Part shown: in pieces, positions 25,634 through 49,284 of the stretch
Position numbering within the stretch: the first letter of the stretch is position 1
Layout of the letters: every line of letters starts with the position of its first letter
Assembly (NCBI GenBank): GCA_017534535.1
Contig: JAFXVZ010000047.1
Coordinates: 1-50,721 of the forward strand
DNA: 50,721 nt
From: Bacteroidaceae bacterium
GTDB lineage: Bacteria; Bacteroidota; Bacteroidia; Bacteroidales; Bacteroidaceae
Direction of reading: 5' to 3'
The notes under the pieces: model-generated
Database searches by the model: none
The model's input: the letters and a program-made list of their open reading frames with translations, nothing else
What the model was told of the DNA's origin: nothing
Position numbers and translations under genes: made by a program

Positions 25634-27538
25634 TTATTCGGTTAATATTTTATTCTTAATTATGTAAATCACCTCATTGTTCGTCTCCACAATTTTATCC
25701 AAATCCTTGGCAAGTCTAAGTCTAAATGCCCAACTGCGGAAATAGAAAATCAAGCCAATGGGCAGCAATATTCCACATACCAAGTTCAACCATTTGTTCG
25801 TAAACGGACGCAGATGCGCATGTACCGATACGATGGGATAATTGTTCAGTGCCTGCAACAAGTAGTTGTTGCGAGAGTTCGCCATATCCGTAATCATCAC
25901 CTCCATCAAGCTGTCAATGAAATCCATCTTCTCATCCAACTGTTCACCCTTCCAGAATTTAATATAGTTAGCAGGGCGTTTTAGGTTATGTTTCTGACCA
26001 TAGGCGATGCAACGTGCCGACAAATCCTCCAACGCTGCTGGCAGCGTCTTGTAGTCTGGATCCAGAATCACCACATCCTTGCGGGTGATGTTTCTAACGG
26101 CACGAATACCCAGCAATCGTTTAAATAATTCCTTATACGTATCAATATTAAGCGCTACAGAATCCGTATTGGATTTATAAGTAAGATATGCCCCTAAAGG
26201 AGCCAGCACCGCCGTACTGAGCCACATGCCTTCCCACGCCAGCCAGTTGCCATCGCGAGCCAACTTGTAACCCGTATTGTTCACAATATAGTAGAAAATG
26301 AATATGAGCACCGATATCACCACTGGCATACCCAAGCCACCCTTGCGGATGATACCACCCAAAGGAGCTCCGATAAAGAAGAAAACCAGGCACGCCAATG
26401 AAAGGGTAATCTTTTCATGCCATGCAGTCATGTGACGCCTCAAACTTGTTTGCGTCTGACTAATATTCAATGTCTTGAAAGACCAATCGGATTGCAGGTT
26501 ATTAGCACTTGCCAACATCGAATTGAGTTGTCGTTGCCTCTCGTTAGGGGTCATTGCATTCATTATGCTGTCCAAGTCGAACTCAGCCAAGTTGGCCTCT
26601 TTCACCTTGATGGAATCCTGTTGCTTGGTCTCAAAATGGATCTTGTAGTTAGTCTTGGCTGTGGCTTGGAACTGAGCCCCACCCAAGCTGTCCACCAGCA
26701 CTGCCATTGAGTCGATACTGGCTTGTAGCATAGCCATATCCTTACTATTCGACTGGCTCGTCATAAAGTCCTCGTCTATCATATTGAAGTTGGCGTTAAA
26801 CTCTATCAACGCATGTTTCTCGCTGAAAGCCTCACGCCTATACGGGACATTCTGCTGTTTCATGTTCTGCGACTGCAGGTTCTCAAACTGCTCGCCGCTA
26901 TAGAGGTGCAGAAAGAGGTAATGCTTATCTTCCGACATCTCCAGCTTACCTGAGTCAGCCCGAATGATCTGCGCATTGTCAAAACCGTTGGCAAAGTTGT
27001 AAATCATTACATTATAGAGCATACCCGTTTCTCTGTCCTTGTGGTCAACATACAGATTATAGCCCTCAATCTGGTCATAGAATGCCTTTTCGGGAATATC
27101 CAGCTCTGGCGATTTCTGCCTCATAGATATCAGCAGTGTCCAAAGCTTCGTCTGTGCCTTAGGTCCAATCACATTCTGGAAATAAAAAGACAGGCCACAC
27201 ACCAGCACCAGCATCACAATCAGTGGACGCATGATTTGCATCAGCGAGATACCCGCTGCCTTCATAGCAATCAACTCGAATCGTTCTCCGAAGTTTCCAA
27301 ACGTGATGAGCGAAGCCAGCAGAACCGCCAAAGGTAGCGAGGCAGGTACCAGCGTCAGCGAGGCATAGAAGAAGAACTGCGCCAGCACGTCAACCGTCAG
27401 ACCCTTGCCCACCATATCGTCCACATACCTCCACAGGAACTGCATCATAAAGATGAAGAGGCAAATGAAGAAGGTACCGGCAAAAAGCAGGCTGAAACTC
27501 TTCAATATAAATATGTCTAATTTCTTCAAACCTGGCAT
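25634..27538 (-). CDS. LptF/LptG-family permease (YjgP/YjgQ)
   Basis: 634 residues, with three N-terminal and three C-terminal membrane helices around a large periplasmic domain. It begins LKKLDIFILKSFSLLFAGTFF, typical of the family's first helix, and LKKL motifs recur. It is an inner-membrane part of the LPS export machine, extracting lipid A-linked LPS with LptB. It is longer than E. coli LptF (about 366), as common in Bacteroidota, with an extra domain of about 200 residues near 430-580. TACCTTTG at 27568-27575 (minus) is a likely -7 box. Confidence 0.87.
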   Translation of the reverse strand: MPGLKKLDIFILKSFSLLFAGTFFICLFIFMMQFLWRYVDDMVGKGLTVDVLAQFFFYASLTLVPASLPLAVLLASLITFGNFGERFELIAMKAAGISLMQIMRPLIVMLVLVCGLSFYFQNVIGPKAQTKLWTLLISMRQKSPELDIPEKAFYDQIEGYNLYVDHKDRETGMLYNVMIYNFANGFDNAQIIRADSGKLEMSEDKHYLFLHLYSGEQFENLQSQNMKQQNVPYRREAFSEKHALIEFNANFNMIDEDFMTSQSNSKDMAMLQASIDSMAVLVDSLGGAQFQATAKTNYKIHFETKQQDSIKVKEANLAEFDLDSIMNAMTPNERQRQLNSMLASANNLQSDWSFKTLNISQTQTSLRRHMTAWHEKITLSLACLVFFFIGAPLGGIIRKGGLGMPVVISVLIFIFYYIVNNTGYKLARDGNWLAWEGMWLSTAVLAPLGAYLTYKSNTDSVALNIDTYKELFKRLLGIRAVRNITRKDVVILDPDYKTLPAALEDLSARCIAYGQKHNLKRPANYIKFWKGEQLDEKMDFIDSLMEVMITDMANSRNNYLLQALNNYPIVSVHAHLRPFTNKWLNLVCGILLPIGLIFYFRSWAFRLRLAKDLDKIVETNNEVIYIIKNKILTE

Positions 27539-27627
27539 AAAAACAGCGATAAACCGTTGTCAAGGCACAAAGGTAGTACAAAAAACGGAGGTAGATGAAT
27601 TTTTTATTCAAAAAATAACGAGAAAGT

Positions 27628-27658
27628 TTTGTCTCTTTCAAAAAAAGCTATACCTTTG
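27628..27658 (+). promoter_or_regulatory. promoter of the tRNA-Met gene
   Basis: TTTG (27628-27631), 19 bases, TACCTTTG (27651-27658), 31 bases before the tRNA. Confidence 0.7.
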
Positions 27659-27689
27659 CACCCGCAATTGCACAATAAGACGATTTGTT

Positions 27690-27763
27690 GGCGGGATAGC
27701 TCAGCTGGTTAGAGCGCATGATTCATAATCATGAGGTCGCCGGTTCAATCCCGGCTCCCGCTA
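27690..27763 (+). tRNA. tRNA-Met (CAT), elongator type
   Basis: All arms fold: acceptor GGCGGGA with TCCCGCT (one G-T pair), D-arm GCTC...GAGC, anticodon stem CATGA/TCATG with loop TTCATAA giving CAT, T-arm GCCGG/CCGGC with TTCAATC. The CCA end is not encoded. The anticodon stem lacks the three G-C pairs of an initiator. A tRNA-Ile with modified C34 is an unexcluded alternative. Confidence 0.93.
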
Positions 27764-27768
27764 CAAAA

Positions 27769-27802
27769 AAGCACCTACGGTTTCATCGCAGGTGTTTTTT
27801 TT
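27769..27802. terminator. terminator after tRNA-Met, also usable by the S66 peptidase gene
   Basis: CACCT (27772-27776) pairs with AGGTG (27790-27794), flanked by A-runs on the left and eight T on the right, so the extended stem works on both strands. The minus-strand gene ends at 27822. Confidence 0.75.
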
Positions 27803-27821
27803 GTATTTGTAACATTTAAAC

Positions 27822-28934
27822 TTACTCACTTTTCCCAGCCAGTATCAACCTCGAAGCAAGTGGCGTTGCATTAACGGCAATTCCTTCCGTCCGAACCACC
27901 TGAGGTTCACCATCGATATCAAACTGGAGAGTTGCGCCATCAGAACGGACATCAATCGTCACAGGAGCCCCCATCACTAACGGAAGGTTCACATCATCGT
28001 GTCCAGCAGGGAAACCACAAAGCACAGGAATGTGATACGCCTCCAAATATAGATGCAGCATTTGCTCCACACTCTCATAGCTAAACTCATGGCCACAATC
28101 CGTAAACTCGCCCAATATCACGCCCTTGCACCTATCTAGTACTCCATTCATGGCAAGGATGTTAAACTGACGGTCGATGTTGTGCATTGATTCCTCCACC
28201 TCTTCTATAAACAGAATCAAATCCCTCCCCAGCGTAGCATCTGCCTGGCTACCCAAGTTCGGGACAAACGTACATATATTGCCACCCACCAGCACTCCGC
28301 TGGCCTTGCCTGTGATATTCTCCTTGTGTGCAGGCAACTCATAACGAGGCACCTTCCCTAATAGCAGGTCACGCATCAGCGTGCTTGTAGCATCCGTACC
28401 ATCCTTAGCCAGGAATGAACTCATGGTACCGTGCACACTCATCACCCCAGCTCGGTTTAGCAGTCCGTGAATCGTACAAATATCGCTGAATCCCACCAGC
28501 CACTTCGGTTGTGCACTCCACTCGCTCAGTTCCATCTTGTCTATCAGCTGAATGGTACCATACCCTCCTCGGTTACAGATAATCGCCTTGATAGAGGCAT
28601 CATTCAGCGCCCACCGCAGATCACTAACACGCTCCGCTATCGTACCCGCATACTTGCCAGCATCCTCCTTGCCCACATTAGGTCCAATCACAGGCTCCAC
28701 CCCCCAAGAACGCAGTATTTCCGCAGTCTTAGTTACATTCTCCATGGGTGTGAAATACGATGGCGATATCAGCGCCACCTTGTCGCCAGGCTTCAGAAAC
28801 CCGGGCTGGACACAGTTCAACTCCTCCACGTCGCTATCAGGTTGAGGTGCTGGCACAGGCACTGGATCATTGTCTTTGTCACACGAAGACAGCGCACCGC
28901 ACAGCATCAAAAGCACGGAGGCTATATATTTCAT
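27822..28934 (-). CDS. S66-family LD-carboxypeptidase-like lipoprotein
   Basis: About 370 residues with a lipoprotein signal ending LSSC and a proline-rich spacer. S66 landmarks: KVALISPSYFT near the start, NRGGYGTIQLID, the Glu-bearing EEVEESMHNIDRQF and the His-bearing FPAGHDDVNLPL. The family trims tetrapeptides in murein recycling; some members (MccF) protect against microcin. At the nucleophile motif the sequence reads GGYGT, with no serine at the place I would expect, so activity is uncertain. The start could be the ATG at 28949 (five residues more). It lies 47-62 bases after the double-glycine peptide gene on the same strand. Confidence 0.82.
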   Translation of the reverse strand: MKYIASVLLMLCGALSSCDKDNDPVPVPAPQPDSDVEELNCVQPGFLKPGDKVALISPSYFTPMENVTKTAEILRSWGVEPVIGPNVGKEDAGKYAGTIAERVSDLRWALNDASIKAIICNRGGYGTIQLIDKMELSEWSAQPKWLVGFSDICTIHGLLNRAGVMSVHGTMSSFLAKDGTDATSTLMRDLLLGKVPRYELPAHKENITGKASGVLVGGNICTFVPNLGSQADATLGRDLILFIEEVEESMHNIDRQFNILAMNGVLDRCKGVILGEFTDCGHEFSYESVEQMLHLYLEAYHIPVLCGFPAGHDDVNLPLVMGAPVTIDVRSDGATLQFDIDGEPQVVRTEGIAVNATPLASRLILAGKSE

Positions 28935-28996
28935 CTTTCGTCTTATCATTTTCGGTTTAGACCAACTCTAATCTGACAACATGGCGATTACTCACC

Positions 28997-29254
28997 CTAA
29001 TTAATTAAAACATAAGAACAATAGAGTTTGCAGAATTGGGAATATTGAGGACACTCTTGATCCTTTGGGCAAACATAATTTTCATTACAATCACCAGTCT
29101 TTCCGCCTGTCACTATATCAAGTTCTTCGTCAGACAGTTCCTCACGCATCACTACCTGATTATCGCGATTCTCTCCCGTGATGGTTACTTTCCTAATATC
29201 TTCATCTATCAGGATATTCAAAATCTTTTTTTTCTTCTTATCAGTCATATTCAT
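28997..29254 (-). CDS. small double-glycine-leader peptide, five-cysteine core
   Basis: 85 residues. A basic start (MNMTDKKKKK) leads to an acidic leader end, ELSDEELDIVTGG (residues 39-51), the classic site cut by double-glycine ABC-transporter peptidases. The core of 34 residues (52-85) carries Cys56, 62, 68, 75 and 79. A near-consensus promoter (29276-29307) fixes the start, because an ATG 29 codons upstream lies before it. No transporter or modifying enzyme is in the window. This resembles a bacteriocin- or signal-like precursor; some such leaders also occur on Bacteroidota peptides of unknown role. The product and activity are inferred. Confidence 0.65.
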   Translation of the reverse strand: MNMTDKKKKKILNILIDEDIRKVTITGENRDNQVVMREELSDEELDIVTGGKTGDCNENYVCPKDQECPQYSQFCKLYCSYVLIN

Positions 29255-29275
29255 ACGGTGTTTATAATTGCAATG

Positions 29276-29307
29276 CAAAGATACAAAATAAAATGCCGAT
29301 TTCCAAA
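29276..29307 (-). promoter_or_regulatory. promoter of the double-glycine peptide gene
   Basis: Minus strand: TTTG (29304-29307), 20 bases, TATCTTTG (29276-29283), both elements exact. A transcript start near 29269 leaves a leader of about 15-20 bases. Confidence 0.75.
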
Positions 29308-29416
29308 TTTTAAGCCCAAAAAGCGGATTATTGAATATCAACCCAAAAGCAGAGCCACAGAAAGGCCTATTATGCCTGCGAAGGTGTACAAAGCATGTAG
29401 TTCTTCCACTTGGAAA

Positions 29417-29482
29417 TTAAAGGAAGTAACAAGCCCGACTAAAGGAACTAATTACTTTAATTAAAGGAACTAATCTCGTAAG
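29417..29482. repeat. three 22-base repeats, YTAAAGGAASTAAY core
   Basis: Units start at 29417, 29439 and 29461; each begins with TTAAAGGAA or CTAAAGGAA, followed by GTAAC or CTAAT. The shared core GAAGTAAC/GAACTAAT resembles GAAGTAAT and GAAGCAAT in the array at 2652-2849. One or two weaker units may precede from 29373. Confidence 0.5.
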
Positions 29483-29755
29483 TCCATCAAGATACACAAC
29501 ATCCGAACTCCAAACTCCAAATTTCATTTTCTCATATTCCATCCTCTGCCTCTATTATTACTTTATCTAATATTAAACTTTCGAAAGTGAATGATTATTC
29601 ATCAACTATGCTATCCATCACCATGTCGGCATTGATCTTAGTTGTGTGGATGTTGGAATGCTCCAATTATTTATGCAAAAATAGTGAAAATTACCTACAT
29701 AACTACATAAATCTACATAAGTTATTGTAAATTAACATTCTGCAATAACAGCTAC

Positions 29756-29828
29756 CTACACTAAAACTACACTATAACTACACTCTACCTACACTACACC
29801 TACACTACACCTACACTACACCTACATA
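29756..29828 (+). repeat. seven heptamers CTACACT/CTACAT at exact 11-base spacing
   Basis: CTACACT starts at 29756, 29767, 29778, 29789, 29800 and 29811, with CTACAT at 29822, each 11 bases apart, close to one helical turn. Looser copies of CTACAT sit at 29695, 29703 and 29713. A protein bound to each would lie on one face of the DNA. Confidence 0.8.
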
Positions 29829-29929
29829 TATAGGCATAAACCTGATTGCATCCAGTATTGATGCAGTATGTAAACCGCTGTTCATCCTCAACCAAAGCGA
29901 TGTTTCCCAATTTGTTACAAGGTTTGAAG

Positions 29930-29979
29930 CTATAAGTAACTTTAAAAATTCTCGAGAGAATTTAATCGTTTACTTATAG
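29930..29979. repeat. central 50-base dyad (AAATTCTC-GA-GAGAATTT inside CTATAAGTAA arms)
   Basis: AAATTCTC (29946-29953) and GAGAATTT (29956-29963) flank GA; six bases on each side lie before the second arms CTATAAGTAA and TTACTTATAG. Both pairs share one midpoint, 29954.5. It could form a cruciform or hairpin of two stem segments. Confidence 0.75.
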
Positions 29980-30008
29980 TAAAAGATCTGCGATAACGTA
30001 GCTGATGA

Positions 30009-30030
30009 CAAAATTCTCGAGAGAATTTTG
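30009..30030. repeat. second copy of the palindrome, CAAAATTCTC-GA-GAGAATTTTG
   Basis: A perfect 10-bp inverted repeat with a two-base GA spacer, 22 bases in all, 55 bases from the central copy. A small hairpin AAGTCGA-AAA-TCGGCTT follows at 30042-30058. Confidence 0.75.
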
Positions 30031-30108
30031 CAGTATTCTTTAAGTCGAAAATCGGCTTGATATAAGTATCATACTCGTGAGGACGAAGCAAGTAACGCTT
30101 GTAGTAAC

Positions 30109-30148
30109 TATGTAGTTTCAGTGTAGTTATAGTGTAGTTATAGTGTAG
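30109..30148 (-). repeat. four heptamers AGTGTAG at 11-base spacing, opposite in orientation
   Basis: Copies start at 30109 (variant ATGTAG at 30110), 30120, 30131 and 30142. This is the reverse complement of the left array (CTACACT). Another copy is at 30207, next to an ATGTAG at 30216. The arrays therefore face each other across the central dyad. Confidence 0.8.
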
Positions 30149-30438
30149 TTTGTATGTTTAATGGCAAGGTGATATTATATTGAAAATATGATATTTACAG
30201 AAAAACAGTGTAGTTATGTAGGTAGTTTTTGAAATTTTATATTGATTTATTTATTATCGCAATTCATTTCCTGTGAGTTGAGCAAACTTCGAAGCCTTTT
30301 TTTATTCCTATTTCGTCGAACTTACGTTATTATTAATATTAGATAGAATTCAATGCCTTACATTTCACTAATCAATTATTCTCCAAATTCAAAACACCAA
30401 ATGAAGTTTGGATTTTGGAGTTCGGCGTGGTTTGGTTA

Positions 30439-30479
30439 AAAACAAAAAAGAGGACACTTCAAAAACAGAAGTGCCCTCT
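30439..30479 (-). terminator. terminator after the DUF1080 gene
   Basis: AGAGGACACTTC (30449-30460) pairs with GAAGTGCCCTCT (30468-30479), one wobble pair; on the minus strand a T-rich run follows (30439-30448). It is 20 bases past the stop at 30500. Confidence 0.8.
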
Positions 30480-30499
30480 CTAAACAATTTAGCTTTTCA

Positions 30500-31243
30500 C
30501 TACGGAAGCTCCTTGATTTTAATGTTCTTGTAGAACACTTCGTGACCATGATCCTGCAAGAGAATGGGGGCATCGATAAAGTTGCCGAAATTGGGCCAGT
30601 TCTTATACTTGCTGTAGGCTACGAGGGCATTCCACATCTGATTATTGCGCTCATACTCCAGCAATTTAGTGCCGTTAAGCCAATGCTCAACATGGTTCCC
30701 CTGCACGATGACAACGGCTGTATTGAATTCATCTTTGTTAAAAGGCTTGTCATCAGACACAGGGATAAGGTCATAAAGGGCACCGAGTTTACGATTGCCT
30801 TTTACCCCTAATTTAGCATCGGGATGCAAGTCATCATCCAGAATCTGGAACTCACAGCCAATGGCAGAACCTGCACCTTGATTAAGGTCTGTATTAACAA
30901 AATACTTGATACCGCTATTGGCACCAGGAGTGATCTTAAAATCCACCTTGAGGATGAAATTACGGAAGGTACGGGTAGTGACTATATCGCCACCATTAGC
31001 AGATTCTTGTCCATCGCCAGGCAGTACACGTAGGATGCCGTTGCTGATGTCCCAACCACCCTTGGGGAAGGTCTGGGCTTTGGCACTACACCAACCATTA
31101 CTGGTTTTACCATCGAAGAGGAGTATCCAGCCATCACGGACTTCTTCTTTAGTCAATTGGTTGTCACCTGGCTCAGCCTTTACCTGAGCTTGAAGGGTCA
31201 AAGCTCCACAAAGAGCTATGGCAAAAAAGATTATTTTTTTCAT
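30500..31243 (-). CDS. secreted DUF1080-domain protein (3-keto-disaccharide hydrolase family)
   Basis: 247 residues with a signal peptide ([20 protein letters not shown]). The domain starts with [14 protein letters not shown] and includes [14 protein letters not shown], the typical concanavalin-like DUF1080 pattern. Family members hydrolyse 3-keto-glucosides or bind carbohydrates in the periplasm. It lies 17 bases after the Gfo/Idh/MocA gene, and paired oxidoreductase plus DUF1080 genes are a known theme in sugar oxidation followed by bond cleavage. Here the pathway link is inferred from adjacency. Confidence 0.88.
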
Positions 31244-31260
31244 ATATTATTCATTCTTCA

Positions 31261-32676
31261 TTACAAGTTATAGAAATACTCCCAACCCTTGCGAGGCAAT
31301 GAGCCAGCCAGCATAGCGTTAGCAAACTGGTTGTTGGTGAACTGCTTCAGGCGGGTGTCGAAATAAAGATCGGCATTCAAACGCTGGGCAATGACACCCA
31401 AACAGAATACCTGACTAAGCACGCCATTAATCTCGAACGGTGAACGTGTCTTTTCCTCACCACGGATAGCACGGAGGAAGTTGACATAGTGGTTCGATGG
31501 GCTCTGCGGCACAGGTGGTAACATTCCTTCCATCTCTTTGGCACGCTTCTCAGGGATGATGGAGAGAGTGCTACCATGACTGCCTCCCTTGAAGATAAGG
31601 TCTTTGGTGTAGATAATCTTGCCTGGATTGAGGTCGCTGTCACGATACTCCCCTTGATTAGTAGCAGGGATATTAGCCGCTAACTCAGACTTGCCGAAGC
31701 CTTCAGGAAGTGGTGGCAGGTTGTCAAGTCCGTCGTACCAAGTAACATCCACAGGAGGCATATTTCCACGGGCTGCAAAGCGGAAAAGAATAGTGGATGA
31801 ATAAGGATAGAAATAATCGTTGTGACCCTTTGCACGTACCATCTTAATCTGATAAGGCAGGCCGAGGTCGAGGAACTCATGCACGGTATCGAGAATGTGT
31901 GCTCCCCAATCGCCGAGGGCACCCATACCGAAGTCGTACCAGCAGCGCCAGTTGCCTTGATGGAATTTCTCATTATAATCATGATAAGGCACAGCGCAGA
32001 GCCAGGTGTCCCAATCCATCGTCTTAGGCATAGGATCAGCAGCTGGGAAACGGTCGATGTTGCTATCCCACTGGTGCCAGCGGCGAACATTGTTCATGTG
32101 TCCAACAACAGCGGTGACATCCTTGATGATGCCAGCCTCTTGCCAAGCCTTAAACTGGAAATAATTGCCTTCAGAGTGGCCTTGATTACCCACCTGAGTC
32201 ACCAATTGCGGATTCTTGCGGGCCAACTGCATCATCAGTTCAGCCTCGATGAAGGTGCGACTCATGGGTTTCTCCACATAGACGTGCTTGCCCTCAGAGA
32301 GCGCCAGCATAGCGATGGGGAAGTGTGAGTGGTCAGGGGTGGCGATGCAGACAGCCTCGAACTCGTTGCCAGCTTTTTCAAACAGTTCGCGGAAGTCTTT
32401 GAAACGTTTGGCATTTGGGTACATATTCATCACCTTCTCGGTCTGCTTGTTGCCCATATCCACATCGCAGAGGGCTACCACCTCCACCATTCCTGTCTTA
32501 GCGAACTCGTCGATGTCCTGCTCGCCTCGGTTACCAATACCGATATAAGCTATTTTTACTTTATCGAACTTGGGTTGGTGGGTGTTGTTGTTTTTAGCCA
32601 GCAATTCAGCTCCGTTAAAGGCCAGTCCGGCAGAAAACAGGGATGCTGTTTTTAGGAAATCTCGTCTTGTTGCCAT
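31261..32676 (-). CDS. exported Gfo/Idh/MocA-family oxidoreductase
   Basis: 471 residues with a twin-arginine-type signal, TRRDFLKTASLFSAGLAF, so it is exported folded, with cofactor. Rossmann start KIAYIGIGNRGEQD, then the EKP motif at YVEKPMSRT, where Lys is catalytic. The family oxidises or reduces sugars with NAD(P); some exported ones make 3-keto sugars. Its size and Tat signal fit Bacteroidota proteins found beside DUF1080 genes. The next gene follows after 17 bases. An upstream gene on the same strand is absent. Confidence 0.88.
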   Translation of the reverse strand: MATRRDFLKTASLFSAGLAFNGAELLAKNNNTHQPKFDKVKIAYIGIGNRGEQDIDEFAKTGMVEVVALCDVDMGNKQTEKVMNMYPNAKRFKDFRELFEKAGNEFEAVCIATPDHSHFPIAMLALSEGKHVYVEKPMSRTFIEAELMMQLARKNPQLVTQVGNQGHSEGNYFQFKAWQEAGIIKDVTAVVGHMNNVRRWHQWDSNIDRFPAADPMPKTMDWDTWLCAVPYHDYNEKFHQGNWRCWYDFGMGALGDWGAHILDTVHEFLDLGLPYQIKMVRAKGHNDYFYPYSSTILFRFAARGNMPPVDVTWYDGLDNLPPLPEGFGKSELAANIPATNQGEYRDSDLNPGKIIYTKDLIFKGGSHGSTLSIIPEKRAKEMEGMLPPVPQSPSNHYVNFLRAIRGEEKTRSPFEINGVLSQVFCLGVIAQRLNADLYFDTRLKQFTNNQFANAMLAGSLPRKGWEYFYNL

Positions 32677-37244: not shown

Positions 37245-37742
37245 TTATTCAGCTTGTTTTTCATCAGCAGTTGCAACTTCTTCCGCCTTTGGAGCCTCTA
37301 CCACCTCAACAGCATCGGTAGCAGCTTTCTTTGAACGACGACGAGTGCGGGTTGTCTTCTTAACCGTCTCCTTAGCCATGTTCTCATCATAGTCAACGAG
37401 CTCAATGAAACACATTGCAGCGTTGTCACCCAAACGATGGCCTGTTTTGATAATGCGAGTATATCCTCCCGGACGATCTGCTATCTTGACAGAGATTTCC
37501 TTGAACAACTCGGTTACAGCATACTTATCTTGAAGATAACTAAACACAACTCGGCGTGAGTTGGTAGTATCATTCTTAGATTTGGTCAACAAAGGCTCGA
37601 CAAATTTCTTCAATGCCTTAGCCTTCTCAACGGTCGTAGTGATTCTTTTGTGCTTAATCAAAGAAACAGCCATGTTTGACAGCATAGCAGCTCTGTGAGA
37701 AGCAGTACGACCTAAATGGTTAAATTTTCTATTATGTCTCAT
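37245..37742 (-). CDS. rplQ: 50S ribosomal protein bL17
   Basis: 165 residues. The N-terminal 120 are standard bL17 ([21 protein letters not shown], then [17 protein letters not shown]). The last 40 or so add a basic patch ([10 protein letters not shown]) and an acidic tail. The tail makes it longer than the usual 120-130 residues, as often seen in Bacteroidota. It is the last gene of the cluster, five bases after rpoA. Confidence 0.96.
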
Positions 37743-37747
37743 TTTTA

Positions 37748-38740
37748 TTAATCTTTTTCTAATTTATACTTAGAAATATCCATTCCAAACGACAGATTCA
37801 GACTCGCGAGCAAATCATCAAGCTCGGTGAGCGATTTCTTTCCGAAGTTTCTGAACTTCAGCAGGTCGGTCTTGTTGTATTGAACCAGGTCGCCAAGGGT
37901 CTCTACATCAGCTGCCTTTAAGCAATTGAGTGCACGTACAGAAAGATCCATGTCAACAAGCTTAGTCTTCAACAACTGACGCATGTGCAAAACTTCTTCA
38001 TCAAACTCCTCGTTACTATCAGAATCAGAAGGCTCCAATGTAATCTTCTCGTCAGAGAACAACATAAAGTGATAGATGAGGATTTTAGCTGCTTCTTTCA
38101 AAGCATCCTTCGGTTGTATGGAACCATCAGTCTCAATCTCAAGTGTTAACTTGTCGAAGTCAGTCTTCTGCTCTACGCGGAAGGGCTCGACAGTGTACTT
38201 GACATTACGGATAGGGGTGTAAATCGAATCGATAGCAATCACATTAACATCGTTGCAGTAAACTTGATTTTCCTCAGCGGGAACATAGCCACGGCCCTTG
38301 TTAATGGTCAGCTCTATGTGCATCGTTGCCTTAGCATCTAAATGACAAATAACTAATTCGGGATTTAACACTTCAAATCCAGACAAATACTTGCCGATGT
38401 CACCTGCCTTAAACACAGTAGAATTTTCAACTGAAATGATTACCTTCTCAGTTTCATAATCTTCAATTACTTGCTTGAATCTCACCTGCTTCAAGTTCAG
38501 GATGATGTTGGTCACATCTTCCCTGACACCAGGAACGCTAGCGAATTCATGCTCTACTCCGTCAATCTTGACGGTAGTAATAGCAAAGCCCTCTAATGAA
38601 GAAAGCAGGATACGGCGCAGGGCATTGCCAATGGTGATGCCAAAACCTGGCTCCAAAGGACGGAATTCAAACTTACCGCGCTTGGAGTCTGCTTCTAACA
38701 TTAAAACTTTCTCAGGTTTTTGAAATGTTAATATCGACAT
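37748..38740 (-). CDS. rpoA: DNA-directed RNA polymerase subunit alpha
   Basis: 330 residues. The N-terminal domain starts [15 protein letters not shown] and includes [20 protein letters not shown], the dimer motif. A linker rich in acidic residues ([12 protein letters not shown]) leads to the C-terminal domain with [16 protein letters not shown] and [19 protein letters not shown]. It starts polymerase assembly and contacts upstream promoter DNA. It lies between rpsD and rplQ. Confidence 0.97.
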
Positions 38741-38752
38741 GAAATTAATTAT

Positions 38753-39355
38753 TTATTTAGAATACAACTCAACGATCAACTGCTCCTTGATGTTCTCTGG
38801 AATATCAGCTCTCTCAGGAACATGCAGCATCTTGCCTGTCTTAGAAGCTTCGTCCCACTCGAACCAAGGATACTTACTGTGGTTGAAACCAGCCAGAGAG
38901 TCGGCAATCACCTCAAGTGACTTAGAGCGTTCGCGTACACCAACCAGCTGACCAGGCTTAACCTGATATGAAGGAATACCTACAACCTCACCGTCTACAA
39001 CGATATGCTTGTGGTTCACCAACTGACGTGCGGCGTCACGAGTCTTACCGATACCGAGACGATATACCACGTTGTCTAGTCTGCATTCCAACATCTGCAA
39101 AAGAATCTCACCAGTGATACCCTTCTTCTTTGCAGCTTTCTCAAACATGTTACGGAACTGTTTCTCCAACACACCATAAGTGTATTTAGCTTTCTGCTTC
39201 TCTCGCAGCTGAATACCATATTCAGAGGTCTTCTTACGTGATGCGCCATGCTGTCCAGGAGGGTTAGTTCTCTTTGCAAGAACTTTATCAGGGCCGTAAA
39301 TAGGCTCTCCAAACTTACGAGCGATTCTTGATTTTGGTCCAGTATATCTAGCCAT
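38753..39355 (-). CDS. rpsD: 30S ribosomal protein uS4
   Basis: 200 residues with the S4 RNA-binding domain ([20 protein letters not shown]). It is a primary 16S binder that starts 30S assembly. Many cells use it for translational control of the alpha operon, and it sits here just before rpoA. No zinc-binding cysteine cluster is present at the N-terminus. Confidence 0.97.
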
Positions 39356-39386
39356 TTTATCTCAATTTAAATTCAAACTCAATTAA

Positions 39387-39776
39387 TTAAACTCTACGTC
39401 TCTTAGGAGGACGGCAACCATTATGTGGCAATGGTGTAACGTCGATAATCTCAGTAACCTCGATACCTGCACCATGGATGGTACGGATAGCAGATTCACG
39501 TCCATTACCTGGACCCTTTACATATGCCTTTACCTTTCTCAGACCGAGGTCATAAGCAACCTTAGCACAATCCTGAGCAGCCATCTGTGCTGCGTAAGGA
39601 GTATTCTTCTTAGAGCCTCTGAATCCCATCTTACCGGCAGAAGACCATGAAATAACCTGACCTTCGCTGTTTGCCAGAGAGACGATAATGTTGTTAAATG
39701 ATGAATGAACATGCAACTGACCCATTGCATCAACTTTCACAACCTTCTTTTTTGCTACAACTTGTTTCTTTGCCAT
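39387..39776 (-). CDS. rpsK: 30S ribosomal protein uS11
   Basis: 129 residues with [16 protein letters not shown] and the C-terminal [11 protein letters not shown] tail that reaches the mRNA path. Standard length. It lies 31 bases upstream of rpsD. Confidence 0.97.
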
Positions 39777-39786
39777 ATCAAATTAA

Positions 39787-40167
39787 TTATTTAGTAGCCT
39801 TTTTCTTGTTAGCAACTGTCTTCTTTCTACCCTTACGTGTACGAGCATTGTTTTTTGTGCTCTGGCCACGAACAGGAAGACCCAAACGGTGACGAACACC
39901 ACGATAGCAACCGATATCCATCAGACGCTTGATGTTCATTTGTACTTCTGAACGAAGGTCACCCTCCACCTTATAACTTGCAGCTATCACTTCTCGAATC
40001 TTAGCTGCCTGATCATCAGTCCAGTCTTTCACCTTCAGGGCTTTGTCAACACCTGCAGTTTCCAAGATCTTCGCTGAACTACTGCGACCTATTCCAAAAA
40101 TATAGGTCAACGCAATCTCACCTCGCTTATTCTGAGGCAAATCTACACCAACTATTCTTATAGCCAT
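39787..40167 (-). CDS. rpsM: 30S ribosomal protein uS13
   Basis: 126 residues: [20 protein letters not shown] at the start and the helix-two-turn-helix; the [20 protein letters not shown] tail touches the P-site tRNA. It is ten bases upstream of rpsK, in the usual order after rpmJ. Confidence 0.97.
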
Positions 40168-40200
40168 ATACTTAATTATTTCTTTGCAAAAATAATACTA

Positions 40201-40317
40201 TTATCCTTGACGCTGTTTATACTTAGGATTCTTCTTATTAATTACATATAGAACGCCACGACGACGCACAATCTTGCAATCTGGCGTACGCTTCTTTAAG
40301 GATACTCTAACTTTCAT
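40201..40317 (-). CDS. rpmJ: 50S ribosomal protein bL36, zinc-free form
   Basis: 38 residues, [20 protein letters not shown] followed by [18 protein letters not shown]. Only one cysteine remains of the four zinc ligands in the classical type, so this is a zinc-independent (C-) version. Position between infA and rpsM is standard. A short gap of 33 bases lies before rpsM. Confidence 0.95.
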
Positions 40318-40323
40318 ATCTAT

Positions 40324-40542
40324 TTATTTATATCTAAATGAAATTCTACCTTTTGACAAATCATAAGGAGACATCTCAACCCTCACCTTATCGCCTGGCA
40401 GAATCTTAATGTAATGCATACGCATCTTGCCAGAGATATGGGCGGTTATCTCATGCCCATTAGTCAATTCTACACGAAACATCGCATTCGACAATGCCTC
40501 GATTATTACTCCATCCTGTTCTATCGCTGACTGTTTTGCCAT
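40324..40542 (-). CDS. infA: translation initiation factor IF-1
   Basis: 72 residues, one OB-fold: [20 protein letters not shown] and [20 protein letters not shown], where the second reads [16 protein letters not shown] in place. It blocks the A site in initiation. It follows secY by only 12 bases, without the map gene that often lies between them. Confidence 0.97.
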
Positions 40543-40554
40543 ATAATCACAGAA

Positions 40555-41898
40555 TTAATAAGCTGCAATGCCAGCGCTACGACCCTTGATACGTCCAGAT
40601 TTCAACAAACCATCATAATGCCTCATCAGCAAGTGGCTCTCAATCTGTTGGAGCGTATCAAGAACAACACCTACAGTAATCAGCAATGAGGTACCACCGA
40701 AGAAGTGAGCAAACTCATTCTGAACACCGAACAGACCAGCAAAAGCAGGCATGATAGCGATAAAGGTCAGAAAGAGGGCACCTGGCAAGGTGATGCGTGA
40801 CATAATCTCATCGATATAATCAGCGGTCTTCTTACCCGGCTTAACACCTGGAATGAAGCCATTGTTTCTCTTCATGTCCTCAGCCATCTGCGTCGGGTTG
40901 ATCGTGATAGCAGTATAGAAGTAAGTGAACAGAATATTCAAGACTGCAAAGATAAAGTTGTACCAGAAACTGCCAGAGTCAGTAAGCGCACGCAGGAAGC
41001 TACTTGAATTGTTCAGGTCAGTGAAACCAATCAGAGAAATTGGAATAAACATAATGGCCTGAGCAAAGATGATAGGCATCACGTTAGCAGCATTCACCTT
41101 CAGAGGAATATACTGGCGTGCACCACCTACCTGCTTGTTGCCCACAACCTTCTTAGCATACTGTACAGGAACTTTTCTTACACCCTGAACTAACAGGATT
41201 GCCAAAGCAATCACAATCAGCAAGATGACAATCTCAATCAAGAACATAACCAATCCACCGGTCTTGTCAGTAATACGAGATACAACCTCCTGGAAGAAAG
41301 CCTGTGGTAAGCGAGCGATGATACCAATCAAAATGATGAAAGAGATACCATTACCCACACCCTTGTCAGTGATTCTTTCACCCAGCCAAAGGATGAACAT
41401 ACTACCAGCAGCCAAGATGATGGTTGAAGTAAACATAAACAGAGTCCAATCTAATGAAGCATTTAAGGAAGGACCTGCCTGATATTTCAAGTTGAGCAAG
41501 TAAGAAGGACCCTGAATCAGCAGAATAAAGATAGTCAAGTATCTTGTGTACTGATTCATCTTTCTTCTTCCACTCTCACCCTCGCGCTGCAGTTTCTGAA
41601 AGTAAGGCACTGCTATACCAAGCAGCTGAATTACGATAGAAGCTGAAATGTAGGGCATGATACCCAATGCAAAGATAGATGCATTGGAGAACGCTCCACC
41701 AGAAAACATGTTCAACAAGGCTAAAAGGCCCTCACTTGTTTGTTCACGCAACTGTGATAGCATTGCAGGGTTGATTCCTGGCAATACCACATAAGAACCG
41801 AAACGGTATATTGCCACAAACAATACGGTGATAAGGATCCTTTGCCTCAGATCCTCAATCTTCCATATATTCTTTAATGTTTCAATAGCTTTTCTCAT
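40555..41898 (-). CDS. secY: protein translocase subunit SecY
   Basis: 447 residues with ten membrane helices. It begins with RQRILITVLFVAIYRFGSYV and has the plug region GGAFSNASIFALGIMPYISA and cytosolic loops with GGARQYIPLKVN. It forms the protein-conducting channel in the inner membrane with SecE and SecG. It is four bases from the rplO stop, in the standard spc order. Confidence 0.97.
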   Translation of the reverse strand: MRKAIETLKNIWKIEDLRQRILITVLFVAIYRFGSYVVLPGINPAMLSQLREQTSEGLLALLNMFSGGAFSNASIFALGIMPYISASIVIQLLGIAVPYFQKLQREGESGRRKMNQYTRYLTIFILLIQGPSYLLNLKYQAGPSLNASLDWTLFMFTSTIILAAGSMFILWLGERITDKGVGNGISFIILIGIIARLPQAFFQEVVSRITDKTGGLVMFLIEIVILLIVIALAILLVQGVRKVPVQYAKKVVGNKQVGGARQYIPLKVNAANVMPIIFAQAIMFIPISLIGFTDLNNSSSFLRALTDSGSFWYNFIFAVLNILFTYFYTAITINPTQMAEDMKRNNGFIPGVKPGKKTADYIDEIMSRITLPGALFLTFIAIMPAFAGLFGVQNEFAHFFGGTSLLITVGVVLDTLQQIESHLLMRHYDGLLKSGRIKGRSAGIAAY

Positions 41899-41902
41899 TG
41901 AA

Positions 41903-42349
41903 TCAGAGTTTTACTACCTTACCACCGGCAGCTTCAATAGCAGCCTCAGCAGTTTTTGAGAAAGCATGAGCTGCTACCTCAACCTTAGCGGTCAGGGTTC
42001 CTTTACCTAATACTTTTACCAACTGCTTTGAAGAAATAAATCCTGCGTTCACCAATGCATTGATGTCAACAGTCTGTAAGTTCTTCGCTTCAGCAAGTGC
42101 TTGGATGGTATCCAGGTTGATAGCTTTATATTCTACACGGTTGATGTTCTTAAAGCCAAATTTAGGCACACGGCGCTGAAGAGGCATCTGACCGCCTTCA
42201 AATCCGATTTTCTTCTTATATCCTGATCTTGACTTTGCACCCTTGGTACCTCTTGTTGAAGTGCCACCCAAACCTGATCCTGGGCCACGACCGATTCTCT
42301 TTCTTGAAGAGGTAGATCCTGCAGCAGGTTTCAAATTACTTAAATCCAT
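41903..42349 (-). CDS. rplO: 50S ribosomal protein uL15
   Basis: 148 residues from the ATG giving MDLSNLKPAAGS. GRGPGSGLGGTSTRGTKGAK is the glycine- and arginine-rich extension that lies in 23S RNA. A frame 14 codons longer is unlikely, as it includes no family sequence. It is next to secY. Confidence 0.96.
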   Translation of the reverse strand: MDLSNLKPAAGSTSSRKRIGRGPGSGLGGTSTRGTKGAKSRSGYKKKIGFEGGQMPLQRRVPKFGFKNINRVEYKAINLDTIQALAEAKNLQTVDINALVNAGFISSKQLVKVLGKGTLTAKVEVAAHAFSKTAEAAIEAAGGKVVKL

Positions 42350-42380
42350 ATTGTAATTCTTTTTATATTCTACAACTACA

Positions 42381-42557
42381 TTACTTAACAATGGTAACCA
42401 AGTGCTTAACTTTCTCTACCATGCCACGGATAGAAGGGTTATCCTCGTGCTCAACAGTATGATTCAGCTTGCGCAAACCCAGTGAATCCAGAATTCTCTT
42501 TTGATTCTTAGGAGCACCAATTCTACTCTTAATCTGTTTAATCTTAATTGTTGACAT
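42381..42557 (-). CDS. rpmD: 50S ribosomal protein uL30
   Basis: 58 residues: MSTIKIKQIKSRIGAPKNQK, then LDSLGLRKLNHTVEHEDNP. A normal short uL30. An AGGAGG Shine-Dalgarno sequence (42563-42568), rare in this phylum, lies five bases before the ATG and touches the rpsE stop codon. Confidence 0.95.
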   Translation of the reverse strand: MSTIKIKQIKSRIGAPKNQKRILDSLGLRKLNHTVEHEDNPSIRGMVEKVKHLVTIVK

Positions 42558-42568
42558 TTTCCCCTCCT

Positions 42569-43087
42569 TTATCCTTTAAATACTTTTTCCATACTTACGC
42601 CTCTGTTCTGAGCAACCATGCGAGCATCACGCATTTCGCTCAGAGCCTTAATGGTTGCCTTAACCAAATTGTGAGGGTTAGATGAGCCCTTTGACTTAGC
42701 CAACACGTCGGTAATACCTACGCTCTCCAAAACGGCACGCATAGCTCCACCAGCCACAACTCCAGTACCCTGAGAAGCTGGTTTAATGAACACCTCAGCT
42801 CCACCAAACTTAGCCACTTGCTCGTGAGGAACAGTTCCCTTGTATACAGGAACCTTTACCAAGTTTTTCTTAGCAGCCTCAACGCCTTTTGCAATGGCAG
42901 TGGTTACTTCACTAGCCTTACCCAGACCATAACCGATGACACCATCTTCATTACCAACCACAACGATGGCAGCGAAAGTGAAGGTTCTACCACCCTTAGT
43001 TACCTTGGTTACACGATTAATAGCAACCAATCTATCTTTCAGCTCTGTATCGCTTGATACTTTTACTTTATTAGTCAATTCTGCCAT
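42569..43087 (-). CDS. rpsE: 30S ribosomal protein uS5
   Basis: 172 residues with the dsRNA-binding-like N-domain ([18 protein letters not shown]) and the C-domain motif [16 protein letters not shown]. It takes part in translational accuracy and helicase activity at the mRNA entry. It lies five bases after rplR. Confidence 0.97.
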
Positions 43088-43092
43088 AATGA

Positions 43093-43437
43093 TTAAAATT
43101 TAAGTCCACCGTTACGTGCAGCATCAGCCACTTCTTTAACTCTACCATGATATAAGTAACCATTACGGTCGAAAACAACAGTCGTAATGCCAGCTTCCTG
43201 AGCCTTCTTAGCGATCAAGTCACCAACCTTGGCAGCCTGTTCCTTCTTAGGCATCTTCTCTGTCATTCCCAGTGAAGATGCAGCAGCCAGTGTCTTGCCT
43301 GTGAGGTCATCAATCAGCTGTACATAGATCTGCTTATTGCTTCTGAATACGGACATACGTGGTCTTTCTGCAGTGCCAGAGACCTTATTGCGTACTCTAT
43401 ATTTGATCTTAATTCGTCTTTCTATTTTTGCTGTCAT
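43093..43437 (-). CDS. rplR: 50S ribosomal protein uL18
   Basis: 114 residues: [20 protein letters not shown] at the start, then [20 protein letters not shown] and the end [20 protein letters not shown]. It carries 5S rRNA into the large subunit. It lies between rplF and rpsE. Confidence 0.97.
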
Positions 43438-43456
43438 GATATATACAATTTAAATG

Positions 43457-44026
43457 TTACTTCGCACCAGCAGCCTTACCAGACTTTCTGCGAATGATTT
43501 CACCAACAAACTTAATGCCCTTTCCTTTGTAAGGCTCAGGCTTACGGAAAGAACGAATCTTAGCGCAAATCTGACCAAGGAGCTGCTTATCGCATGACTC
43601 TAACAGAATCAGCGGGTTCTTGTTTCTCTCTGACTTAGTCTCAACCTTCACCTCAGGTGGTAACTGAATGAAGATAGGGTGAGTATAGCCTAAAGACAAC
43701 TCGATAACGTTACCCTGATTAGAAACACGGTAACCTACGCCTACAAGCTCCATTTCCTTCTTATATCCCTCAGATACGCCAACCACCATATTATTAACCA
43801 ATGCACGGTACAGACCATGATATGCATGACGCTGCTTTGGATCGTACTGCATGGTCTCCTCGTTCTCAACGAATGAGATATGGCCATCTTCGATGGTAAC
43901 TTTGATAGCAGGATTAACATACTGGCTCAACTCGCCCTTAGGACCCTTTACGGTCACTACATCATCCTTGAAGTTTACAGTAACTCCAGCAGGAATGCTA
44001 ATGGGTAATTTTCCTATTCTTGACAT
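43457..44026 (-). CDS. rplF: 50S ribosomal protein uL6
   Basis: 189 residues starting MSRIGKLPISIPAGV, with the C-terminal PEPYKGKGIKFVGEIIRRKS. The frame could extend ten codons upstream, but the ATG at 44026 fits all relatives, and an AGGAGG (44034-44039) lies seven bases before it. It is 14 bases after the rpsH stop. Confidence 0.97.
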   Translation of the reverse strand: MSRIGKLPISIPAGVTVNFKDDVVTVKGPKGELSQYVNPAIKVTIEDGHISFVENEETMQYDPKQRHAYHGLYRALVNNMVVGVSEGYKKEMELVGVGYRVSNQGNVIELSLGYTHPIFIQLPPEVKVETKSERNKNPLILLESCDKQLLGQICAKIRSFRKPEPYKGKGIKFVGEIIRRKSGKAAGAK

Positions 44027-44040
44027 GCTAAATCCTCCTA

Positions 44041-44436
44041 TTAATAAACGTAACACAATACTTCGCCACCAATCTTAAGCTCGGCAGCTTCTTTGTCTGT
44101 CATCACACCCTTAGATGTTGAAAGAATAGCAATACCCAAGCCATTGATAACTCTTGGCATTTCCTTGTAACCAGTGTACTTACGCAAACCAGGAGAAGAC
44201 ACACGTATGAGCTTCTTGATTGCGTTCACCTTATTCACTGGGTCATACTTCAGAGCCACCTTAATGGTGCCCTGAGGACCATCTTCTACAAACTTGTAAT
44301 TAAGAATGTAGCCTTTGTCAAAAAGAATCTTAGTGATTTCTTTTTTCAAATTTGAGGCAGGAACCTCCACTACTCTATGCTTAGCTTGAATAGCGTTTCT
44401 CAACCTCGTCAAATAATCTGCTATTGGATCAGTCAT
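44041..44436 (-). CDS. rpsH: 30S ribosomal protein uS8
   Basis: 131 residues: MTDPIADYLTRLRNAIQAKH at the start and LGIAILSTSKGVMTDKEA at the end. It binds central 16S rRNA, and in some bacteria represses the spc operon. It lies between rpsN and rplF. Confidence 0.97.
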   Translation of the reverse strand: MTDPIADYLTRLRNAIQAKHRVVEVPASNLKKEITKILFDKGYILNYKFVEDGPQGTIKVALKYDPVNKVNAIKKLIRVSSPGLRKYTGYKEMPRVINGLGIAILSTSKGVMTDKEAAELKIGGEVLCYVY

Positions 44437-44490
44437 ATAATAAATAATTAAATTAATCAGGACTACCCTGACAATATTTAAACATTACTT

Positions 44491-44790
44491 TTACCAGCTT
44501 GCTTTGTGTACTCCAGGTATCAAACCGTTAGATGCCATCTCGCGGAAAGCAATTCTTGAAATTCCGAACTGACGAAGATAACCTTTAGGACGACCACTCA
44601 TCTTACAACGGTTGTGCAATCTGATAGGATTAGCGTTCTTAGGAAGATCTTGTAGTTTCTGAGCTGCCTCATAAGCTTCGGTAGGATCACCTTTTCTTAC
44701 GATTTCTTTCAGTGCTGCTCTCTTAGCGGCATACTTAGCTACCAGCTTTGCACGCTTTACCTCGCGTGCTTTCATTGATTCCTTTGCCAT
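44491..44790 (-). CDS. rpsN: 30S ribosomal protein uS14
   Basis: 99 residues, the long zinc-free form: no CxxC pairs, with [20 protein letters not shown] near the end. It lies six bases after rplE and 54 bases before rpsH. Confidence 0.97.
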
Positions 44791-44796
44791 AATTTA

Positions 44797-45354
44797 TCAA
44801 TCTTTTTTAGCGTTTTTAAATGGTAAGCCAAATTCCTTCAACAAAGCATAACCTTCCTCGTCAGTTTTAGCAGTGGTTACGAACGTAATGTTCATACCCT
44901 TGATACTCTGAACACTATCGATATTAATCTCTGGGAAGATAATTTGCTCCTGGATACCCAGTGAATAGTTACCACGACCATCCAGCTTGCTTTCAATACC
45001 CTTAAAGTCACGGATACGAGGTAAAGCCACACGAATCAACTTCTCCAGGAACTCATACATACGCTCACGACGCAGTGTCACCATCACGCCAATAGGCATC
45101 TTCTTACGCAACTTGAAGTTAGCGATATCCTTCTTAGAAAGGGTTGCCACAGCCTTCTGGCCAGTAATAGTGGTCAGCTCATTGATAGCGTCATCGATAA
45201 TCTTCTTGTCAGCCACAGCATTACCTAAACCTTGGTTCACCACAATCTTCTTCAATACAGGTATCTGCATGGTAGAAGTGTACTGGAACTTTGCTTTCAA
45301 AGCAGGAGCGATACGCTCAGCATATTCCTTCTTTAAACTTGCAGTATTACTCAT
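44797..45354 (-). CDS. rplE: 50S ribosomal protein uL5
   Basis: 185 residues beginning [20 protein letters not shown] and including [16 protein letters not shown]. It binds 5S rRNA and the tRNA elbow. The ATG at 45354 overlaps the rplX stop (TGATG). A GTG directly before it is a worse choice. AGGAG lies eight bases upstream, within the rplX codons. Confidence 0.96.
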
Positions 45355-45674
45355 CACTTAATCTCCTCTCCTGATTTTTTAGCGTAACGAACTAATTTAC
45401 CATTATCACCCAATCTTCTACCGATGCGAGTAGGCTTGCCGGTCTTAGGATCAAGAGGATTCAAATTTGAAATATGAATAGGAGCCTCTTTCTTTACAAA
45501 ACCACCCTGTGGGTTCTTTGCGTTAGGCTTAGTGCTCTTCTGAACCATGTTGACACCTTCAACGATGGCACGGTTCTCTTTTACAAGAACCTTCAACACG
45601 CGACCAGTCTTGCCCTTGTCTTCACCGGCATTCACGTAAACCTGGTCGTTCTTTTTAATATGCAATTTACTCAT
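45354..45674 (-). CDS. rplX: 50S ribosomal protein uL24
   Basis: 106 residues with the KOW motif [20 protein letters not shown] and the C-terminal [12 protein letters not shown]. It starts 50S assembly near the exit tunnel. The stop overlaps the rplE start. Confidence 0.97.
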
Positions 45675-45694
45675 TAGTTTAAAACTTTAAAAAA

Positions 45695-46060
45695 TTAAAG
45701 TACTTCAGGAGCTAGTGAGACTACTTTCATGTTAGTAGCACGAAGCTCGCGGGCAACAGGGCCAAAGATACGGCTACCGCGAAGTTCGCCTGCATTATTC
45801 AACAACACACAAGCATTATCGTCGAAACGGATGTAAGAACCGTCAGCACGACGGATTTCCTTCTTCGTACGTACGATCAAAGCTTTTGACACTGCACCTT
45901 TTTTAATATCACTTGAAGGGATAACATTCTGAACGGCTACAACGATGATGTCGCCAACAGAAGCATAGCGGCGACCAGTGCTACCCAAAACACGGATGCA
46001 CAAAGCCTCGCGAGCTCCACTGTTATCGCATACAGTAAGTTTGGTCTCTACTTGTATCAT
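45695..46060 (-). CDS. rplN: 50S ribosomal protein uL14
   Basis: 121 residues: [20 protein letters not shown] and a C-terminal [14 protein letters not shown]. It lies on the subunit interface near uL19. Two bases separate it from rpsQ. Confidence 0.97.
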
Positions 46061-46062
46061 AA

Positions 46063-46320
46063 TTACTTAGCTCTTTCAGTTATTTCTACTAATCTCCATC
46101 TCTTCAGCTTGCTCAGCGGGCGAGTTTCCATGATACGAACGGTATCACCGATATTGCACTCATTCTTCTCATCATGAGCATAGTACTTCTTCGTCTTGCT
46201 GACGAACTTGCCATACAAGGGGTGCTTCACTTTGAACTTAGAAGCCACAGTGATAGTCTTATCCATCTTATTGCTCAGGACAACCCCTGTTCTCACTTTT
46301 CTTAAATTTCTTGCTTCCAT
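46063..46320 (-). CDS. rpsQ: 30S ribosomal protein uS17
   Basis: 85 residues starting [14 protein letters not shown], with [15 protein letters not shown] four-codon extension upstream would begin at 46332, next to the rpmC stop, but the ATG at 46320 matches the usual family start. It binds 16S rRNA early in assembly. Confidence 0.95.
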
Positions 46321-46332
46321 CAAGGCCATCAA

Positions 46333-46527: not shown

Positions 46528-46532
46528 ATCTT

Positions 46533-46970: not shown

Positions 46971-46988
46971 AACTTCTAAATTTCAAAA

Positions 46989-47714: not shown

Positions 47715-47719
47715 AAACC

Positions 47720-48130: not shown

Positions 48131-48167
48131 TATATAATATTACTTTTTTATCTATGATAACCTGTCT

Positions 48168-48434: not shown

Positions 48435-48454
48435 AATTTATTCTTTTAATCAGA

Positions 48455-49279: not shown

Positions 49280-49284
49280 CTTAA

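Follow-up and report, generated by a model that had tools for sequence, protein, structure and literature searches.

Iterons of 11 bp gathered in two clusters are a feature of iteron plasmid origins and of centromeres, such as parC of R1, and the transpososome of phage Mu includes an HU-bent gap and an internal enhancer. The origin of phage-inducible chromosomal islands (PICI) consists of two iteron sets that are separated by a gap and lie beside the gene (PMC6092414). BrickBuilt, a MITE of Porphyromonas gingivalis, is an intergenic element with 19 copies in one strain, both complete and truncated, with 12-bp IS5-type ends and 23-nt repeats running in one direction (PMC4596501). The BT4734-like proteins have been classed as archaeo-eukaryotic primases with the motif hhhDhD/E, and VirE (PF05272) is given in the same source as a predicted helicase of mobile elements (PMC5862659). 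The window considered here, meaning the whole stretch of 50,721 nucleotides that was analysed, contains a gene-less copy of an element family dispersed in rumen and gut relatives of Prevotella. It is regarded, with a probability of about 0.6, as a solo copy of a mobile, origin-like element whose complete form is a two-gene VapE-HU locus; we infer both the origin function and the mobility. The complete form is best read as pairing a VapE/BT4734-type primase-helicase, devoid of the aspartates of primase motif I, with an HU-HIG DNA-binding protein.

A preliminary description of the window reported nested inverted repeats between 29503 and 30425, treated as independent pairs with nearly one centre, and every pair that it named was found in its place: 29503-29529/30399-30425 (25 of 27 bases, 93%), 29692-29707/30209-30224 (16 bases, exact), 29765-29784/30120-30139 (20 bases, exact, with an alternative 21-bp register at 29764-29784/30131-30151), 29930-29939/29970-29979 (10 bases) and 29946-29953/29956-29963 (8 bases). 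One further exact pair of 13 bases, 29564-29576/30333-30345, can be added to that list. The exact inverted pairs of at least 8 bp centred in 29952-29964 number 12 and sum to 141 arm bases, a value reached by none of 500 dinucleotide-preserving shuffles (mean 18.6, maximum 46), and with 7-bp seeds again none of 500 shuffles attained the observed symmetry. The concentric repeats are thus confirmed as real and beyond chance, and the possibility, raised with the original claim, that shuffled sequence would yield similar concentric pairs did not materialise; nor do relatives carry random filler between the arms, since they display the same organised architecture. The common centre holds, but independence does not, because several pairs are registers of inverted 11-bp iteron arrays; these arrays, the outer iteron pairs and the central palindrome pair make up the bulk of the symmetry signal. 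The proposed bounds were also too wide, the conserved body extending from about 29692 to 30226. The features of the window copy are the following:

29503..29529, + strand: outermost inverted arm, probably outside the element; it has no other two-sided copy and lies outside the shared stretch
29572..30311, no strand: stretch found also, at 88%, in the second copy, G000:C31:45646-46351; it extends beyond the conserved body
29590..29665, - strand: short frame LEHSNIHTTKINADMVMDSIVDE after an outward promoter-like TATTTTTGC, read from the sequence; it also adjoins the C31 copy
29692..30226, no strand: conserved body, from outer iterons to outer iterons; it matches G006:C9 at 79% over 29692-30234 and G000:C31 at 88%
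29692..29707, + strand: left outer iteron pair, within CCTACATAACTACA, the exact inverse of 30209-30224; the outer iterons recur in the family
29708..29751, no strand: gap that separates the outer from the inner iterons on the left, with an A+T content of 77%, from the split-arm analysis
29752..29828, + strand: left inner iteron array of 11-bp period, ACTACACTATA-like (repeat families D1 and D4)
29946..29963, no strand: palindrome P1, AAATTCTCGAGAGAATTT, from the repeat listing and the family cores
29969..29984, no strand: inner imperfect palindrome A (TTTACTTATAGTAAAA), read from the sequence and the listed cores
30011..30028, no strand: palindrome P2, starting 65 bp after the start of P1, a spacing constant within 1 bp in 120/120 cores
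30100..30151, - strand: right inner iteron array, inverse of the left (repeat families D3 and D5, pairs I1-I4)
30152..30208, no strand: right gap, 75% A+T, from the split-arm analysis
30209..30226, - strand: right outer iteron pair, with an exact inverted match to the left outer pair
30399..30425, - strand: partner of the outermost arm, probably outside the element on the same basis

The window copy therefore has both arms and the core, with neither VapE nor HU adjoining, and the partner palindrome B, expected at about 29990-30007, is degenerate in it. The outermost 27-bp pair was rejected as the ends of the element: it is absent from the second copy and falls outside the shared 29572-30311, and a genome search gave only three hits with 2 mismatches and no other two-sided copy, for which reasons it probably does not belong to the element.

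At the left side, the frame at 29590..29665 resembles what we take to be the C terminus of a tyrosine recombinase, and the junction formed by this frame and the promoter-like box probably predates the duplication, since the C31 copy has the same junction. The absence of a gene holds for the element itself, with a small ORF nearby at 29003-29239 (- strand), which has the look of a double-glycine leader (ELDIVTGGK) and a Cys-rich tail and whose Pfam lantibiotic match (E 0.035) is below the cut-off. Just left of the element, at 29415-29484, there is a local repeat AATTAAAGGAAGTAA / AATTAAAGGAACTAA with a palindrome. In the window, the distance from a hydrolase gene to a tRNA gene is 2.7 kb and includes the element, the small ORF and an LD-carboxypeptidase gene; at the same place in G006 and G026, the tRNA gene follows the hydrolase gene after 148 and 381 bp, respectively, and the element is absent between them. 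A search of 27500-32500 with Rfam returned above the cut-off only a tRNA at 27690, around which three weaker matches cluster outside the element, and nothing in the element itself; the phage and plasmid collections gave no DNA match to it. Elsewhere in the window, 3654-7373 (- strand) matches DNA polymerase families, and 37245-50648 (- strand) is a long same-strand run of small genes, six of which had no PHROGs match at 1e-4.

The second copy lies on another contig of the same genome, which also holds a left-arm fragment in C33, followed by a gene that is presumably a transposase, and three core-only relatives (C31:131226, C31:226721 and C6:49131). Within the genus, paired palindromes were found in 6 of 158 genomes, at 15 places, all 83 bp long. 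A scan of a genome collection comprising, by its description, 84,980 species gave at least 119 matching stretches; the names among the 80 matches listed are Prevotella, Xylanibacter and Prevotellaceae, together with MAGs labelled Bacteroidaceae, Bacteroidales or uncultured bacterium, and include P. ruminicola KHT3, X. ruminicola Ga6B6 and Prevotella sp. ne3005. One contig in IMG/VR matches, in which tblastn detected neither VapE nor HU, and a search of the open-licence literature found no paper describing the family. The check on copy number suggested in the preliminary description is thereby answered with a second copy in the same genome and more in relatives, and its proposal of a symmetric site for replication, partition or recombination, or of a non-autonomous mobile element, pointed in the right direction: the site is repeated, dispersed and gene-less, and those of its relatives that contain genes code for a helicase of replication type and an HU-like protein. 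The interpretation is thus supported in part; its bounds were too wide, and the split structure of the iteron arms, the constant 65-bp spacing of the palindromes and the partner genes were beyond what that description could show.

The general plan of the site is outer iterons, gap, inner iterons, core, inner iterons, gap and outer iterons. The core has two invariant palindromes AAATTCTCnnGAGAATTT, whose distance of 65 bp varies by no more than 1 bp over all 120 cores and which enclose two weaker, imperfect ones; in a search permitting spacers of 36-66, the spacer was 51, 50 or 52 in 105, 11 and 4 of the 120 cores, respectively. In the clearest core, the four palindrome centres are about 21.5 bp apart, or two helix turns, a reading of that one core. 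Two loci from two genomes, L099 (G028:C32) and L102 (G008:C133), belong to another VapE-HU family with its own palindrome pair AAAACAACTTGTTTT 66 bp apart, which suggests that the paired-palindrome plan extends beyond the AAATTCTC family. Single or paired palindromes adjoined by runs of TTAGTTTAAGCAAG-like units, like multiplied A/B boxes, occur in L027 (G028:C28) and L007 (G000:C31), and in L022 (G006:C44:6435-7070) the core is flipped relative to the arms in comparison with the window copy.

The two arms that flank the core are inverted and composed of mostly 11-bp iterons, which vary between elements (AACTACAC, GCCTACAT, AAACACTAC, TTCGACAT, AGGGTGAC and GGGTGCCA). Among the 97 of 120 elements that entered the comparison, which needed 400 bp on each side, 59 have arms that are inverted matches of each other; the control in the same orientation gave 5, and exchanging partners between elements gave 14 on average and 21 at most. 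Successive iterons, at spacings up to 25 bp, are 11 bp apart in 165 of 274 cases and 8 bp apart in 41. The arrays are split in 72 of 76 arms, with 1-3 outer iterons (2 in 46 arms) and 3-6 inner ones in 66; these arms come from 38 elements, out of 48 that had at least three matched iterons on each side, after the exclusion of L125, L145, L147, L154, L195, L207, L223, L226, L228 and L232. The gap measures 47-49 bp in 38 of the 72 split arms, 58-60 in 10, 35-39 in 12 and 45-46 in 8, and the impression of steps of about 11 bp is an after-the-fact reading. An A+T-rich gap as an origin mark was considered and found unsupported, the A+T content being 0.68 in the gap vs 0.69 outside. Core words are similar inside some genomes though the iterons differ; in ne3005, two gene-bearing (master) loci differ in their iterons but resemble each other in core words, and a solo, the hybrid L237 (G184:C6), combines both kinds of arm on one core, with TTCGACAT iterons on the left and GCCTACAT iterons on the right. 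From these few genomes, the iterons seem to go with the master, and the core words seem to be common within a genome.

The genes for the BT4734/VapE primase-helicase, the HU-HIG protein, or both, lie within 700 bp of 34 of the 120 cores, when about one is expected by chance from the density of 66 VapE-like hits in about 26 Mb. One or both are inside the fetched stretch in 36 of the 120 loci, and neither is within 700 bp of the other 86 cores, some of whose loci end near the core. Clustering of neighbour genes within 5 kb of the masters, a procedure distinct from a search with transposase or integrase models, revealed no third gene family as frequent and no recurring transposase, recombinase or integrase family. 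In G100 and G008, the element is located between a gene for a BT4734-like_N and VapE-like protein (ORFs of 741 and 722 aa) and the HU-HIG gene. Two layouts can be distinguished: type I, with the order HU, arm, core, arm and VapE, where the second arm is clearly placed between core and VapE in 7 of 8 loci, and type II, with the order arm, core, VapE, arm and HU, where the second arm clearly follows VapE in 5 of 6 loci and L291 keeps one iteron. The genes of type I loci stand outside the arms and those of type II loci partly between them, an arrangement that suits neither a simple transposon nor one fixed operon; the idea of a transposon that encloses its genes holds only in part, for type II. 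The proposal that every VapE locus bears such a site found no support in a test with the AAATTCTC palindrome. The core counts of seven whole genomes, of which four were picked because their locus had a master, are 4, 5, 8, 30, 13, 4 and 1, with 1-2 master loci in each genome; in one master (G183:C30), the VapE gene is in two pieces. No matching master was detected in the window's genome, whose assembly is 89% complete and in which 6 of 7 BT4734 matches were examined, none beside palindromes or iterons.

The VapE protein is homologous to the island-type primase-helicases, and PriRep1 is its closest solved relative. A profile of 16 master VapE proteins has one confident solved match, 7pds ('similar to D. 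nodosus vapE', E 1.4e-14), which presumably derives from a staphylococcal pathogenicity island, and a single VapE protein reaches 9.2e-9 against it with phmmer. For a predicted VapE model of middling quality (pLDDT 72, pTM 0.41), chains of 7pds, 'PriRep1 with dsDNA', occupy the first six places among the PDB hits (E 1.4e-8 to 2.3e-7), the best with low TM scores of 0.31/0.45, and the next matches are the primase-polymerases of African swine fever virus and NrS-1. All 20 master VapE proteins read are without the D-x-D of primase motif I; of a further 27 BT4734 proteins, drawn from eight genomes, 20 have it and 7 do not, so that its loss belongs to a wider VapE branch and is unsupported as a mark of masters only. 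VapE proteins with neither D-x-D nor an adjoining AAATTCTC element are found at L067, L068, L069, L073, L075, L077 and L081.

The solo copies are best documented in RUG414, where 28 of the 30 cores were read, the remaining two being at contig starts. The 27 non-masters read are alike through arm and core and have mostly different surroundings, a few with common flanking sequence; by a tolerant pattern test, exactly one complete arm is present in 23 of the 27, both in 3 and neither in 1, and in the one-armed solos the other side is cut at varying points. Four of these solos (L277, L281, L284 and L286) contain a 20-24-nt piece of the VapE start, followed by about 33 nt of the coding end and downstream sequence; in another four (L272, L280, L294 and L297), the VapE 5' piece is accompanied by no more than about 10 coding nt from the 3' end, a weaker remnant, and L279 and L287 have an end piece alone. 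The longest of these remnant matches has an E of 2e-16, and the short ones are singly weak and recur at the same positions. Since pieces of both VapE ends are kept at recurring positions, some RUG414 solos look like internal deletions of the VapE-bearing form. At one orthologous place, the priA/HD-hydrolase gap, G006 has the element and a length of about 740 bp; G000 and G008 lack it there, and their gaps measure about 203 and 234 bp, respectively. Such an absence, here as at the window's own place, is compatible with gain and with loss. Target-site duplications and an exact empty site were looked for in the flanks of copies whose exact ends are uncertain, and none was recognised.

How such a site might work can be outlined from its architecture. 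The VapE helicase would bind its own iterons on both arms, the HU protein may bend the gaps and so bring outer and inner iterons into one complex, and the palindromic core could tie the arms together or control firing. Helicase loading would then start DNA synthesis locally, in the manner of the PICI origins with their two iteron sets, and copies of the origin region might enter new places with or without the genes; the window copy would depend for its function on a matching VapE-HU pair acting in trans. A more specific proposal, tentative and itself improbable to a degree, is a new class of bacterial mobile element free of transposase and integrase: a VapE with a dead primase motif, together with HU, would fire the double-armed origin to excess, and host recombination would return the surplus DNA to the chromosome as scattered one-armed, gene-less copies.

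The long inverted arms, the internal-deletion derivatives, the many diverged RUG414 copies in mostly different surroundings and the presence or absence at species level could also be explained by a MITE-like transposon, in which the arms are ends held in a transpososome, HU bends the gap, the core is an internal enhancer, and VapE or an unseen transposase moves the element, with no origin involved. This explanation appears rather unlikely when set against the neighbour clustering, in which no transposase or recombinase family recurs near masters, the lack of a visible target duplication, the type I genes outside the arms, and the 23 of 27 RUG414 solos with one complete arm and a variably cut other side. 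The one-armed copies that are the rule in RUG414 weigh against a host-beneficial site, that is, dispersed nucleoprotein anchors read by VapE-HU for chromosome organisation, replication control or bidirectional regulation, as do the range of 1 to 30 copies among related genomes and the places not common to relatives. Such a role, less probable again, would agree with the extreme conservation of spacing, the core words alike within some genomes despite differing iterons, and the occurrence of some copies at corresponding places in different species (the master of G100 and G008; the solos G100:C10 and G028:C22, whose right-hand neighbour gene is the same). It would also agree with the position of the paired core, inside an ORF of at least 100 aa in none of 13 neighbourhoods and between convergent genes in 5 of them; in the wide set, 13 of 120 cores are inside a mechanical ORF of that length, 1 of them in an ORF of 150 aa.

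An array of RNA or terminator hairpins, in which the palindromes terminate transcription in both directions and the arms pair into a long RNA stem, would account for the complementary arms and for palindromes able to form A/T-flanked hairpins. It is very improbable, given that no Rfam family exceeds the cut-off in the element, that the 11-bp iteron phase indicates DNA helix geometry, and that the iterons form direct repeats, for which a stem has no use.

With this element family, the recurrent BT4734/VapE and HU-HIG gene pair of the Prevotella group acquires a likely DNA partner and a job open to testing, and a recognition code comes to light in which iterons change between elements and geometry is constant. 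If the site is an origin, the seven counted genomes carry 1 to 30 potential extra origins each, and if it moves without a recombinase, its mode of spread is new.

Compared with known systems, the site may be described as built like a double-armed replication origin. Its likeness to the PICIs (SaPI and Gram-negative) lies in the VapE-kind primase-helicase of the masters, closest to PriRep1 of 7pds and missing from the window copy itself, and in arms that also comprise two iteron sets and a gap (72/76 arms). The differences are that here two split arrays face each other around a palindromic core, the HU-HIG gene is the partner, without a third recurrent gene family, the master VapE proteins have an altered primase motif I, gene-less copies are scattered over the chromosome, and the gap shows no special richness in A+T. 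We do not class the element as a PICI, because no integrase family recurs near masters, as judged by clustering and not by a model, and because no gap stood out as an A+T-rich region. As in a MITE, it is multicopy and gene-less and apparently derived by internal deletion from a gene-bearing form (30 cores in one genome; 4 of 27 solos clear and four weaker); terminal repeats shared with a transposase-bearing element are lacking, the recurring partners being VapE and HU-HIG, and it is not filed as a classical MITE because no transposase partner was found. With BrickBuilt, the element has in common the intergenic position, the multiple gene-less copies, complete or truncated, and the internal short tandem repeats, and it differs in its mostly 11-bp iterons in two inverted arms, its palindromes spaced by 65 bp, and the VapE-HU partners in place of a transposase. 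Iteron plasmid origins and centromeres share with it the 11-bp iterons in two clusters, from which the element is distinguished by inverted split arms, chromosomal dispersal and a helicase partner.
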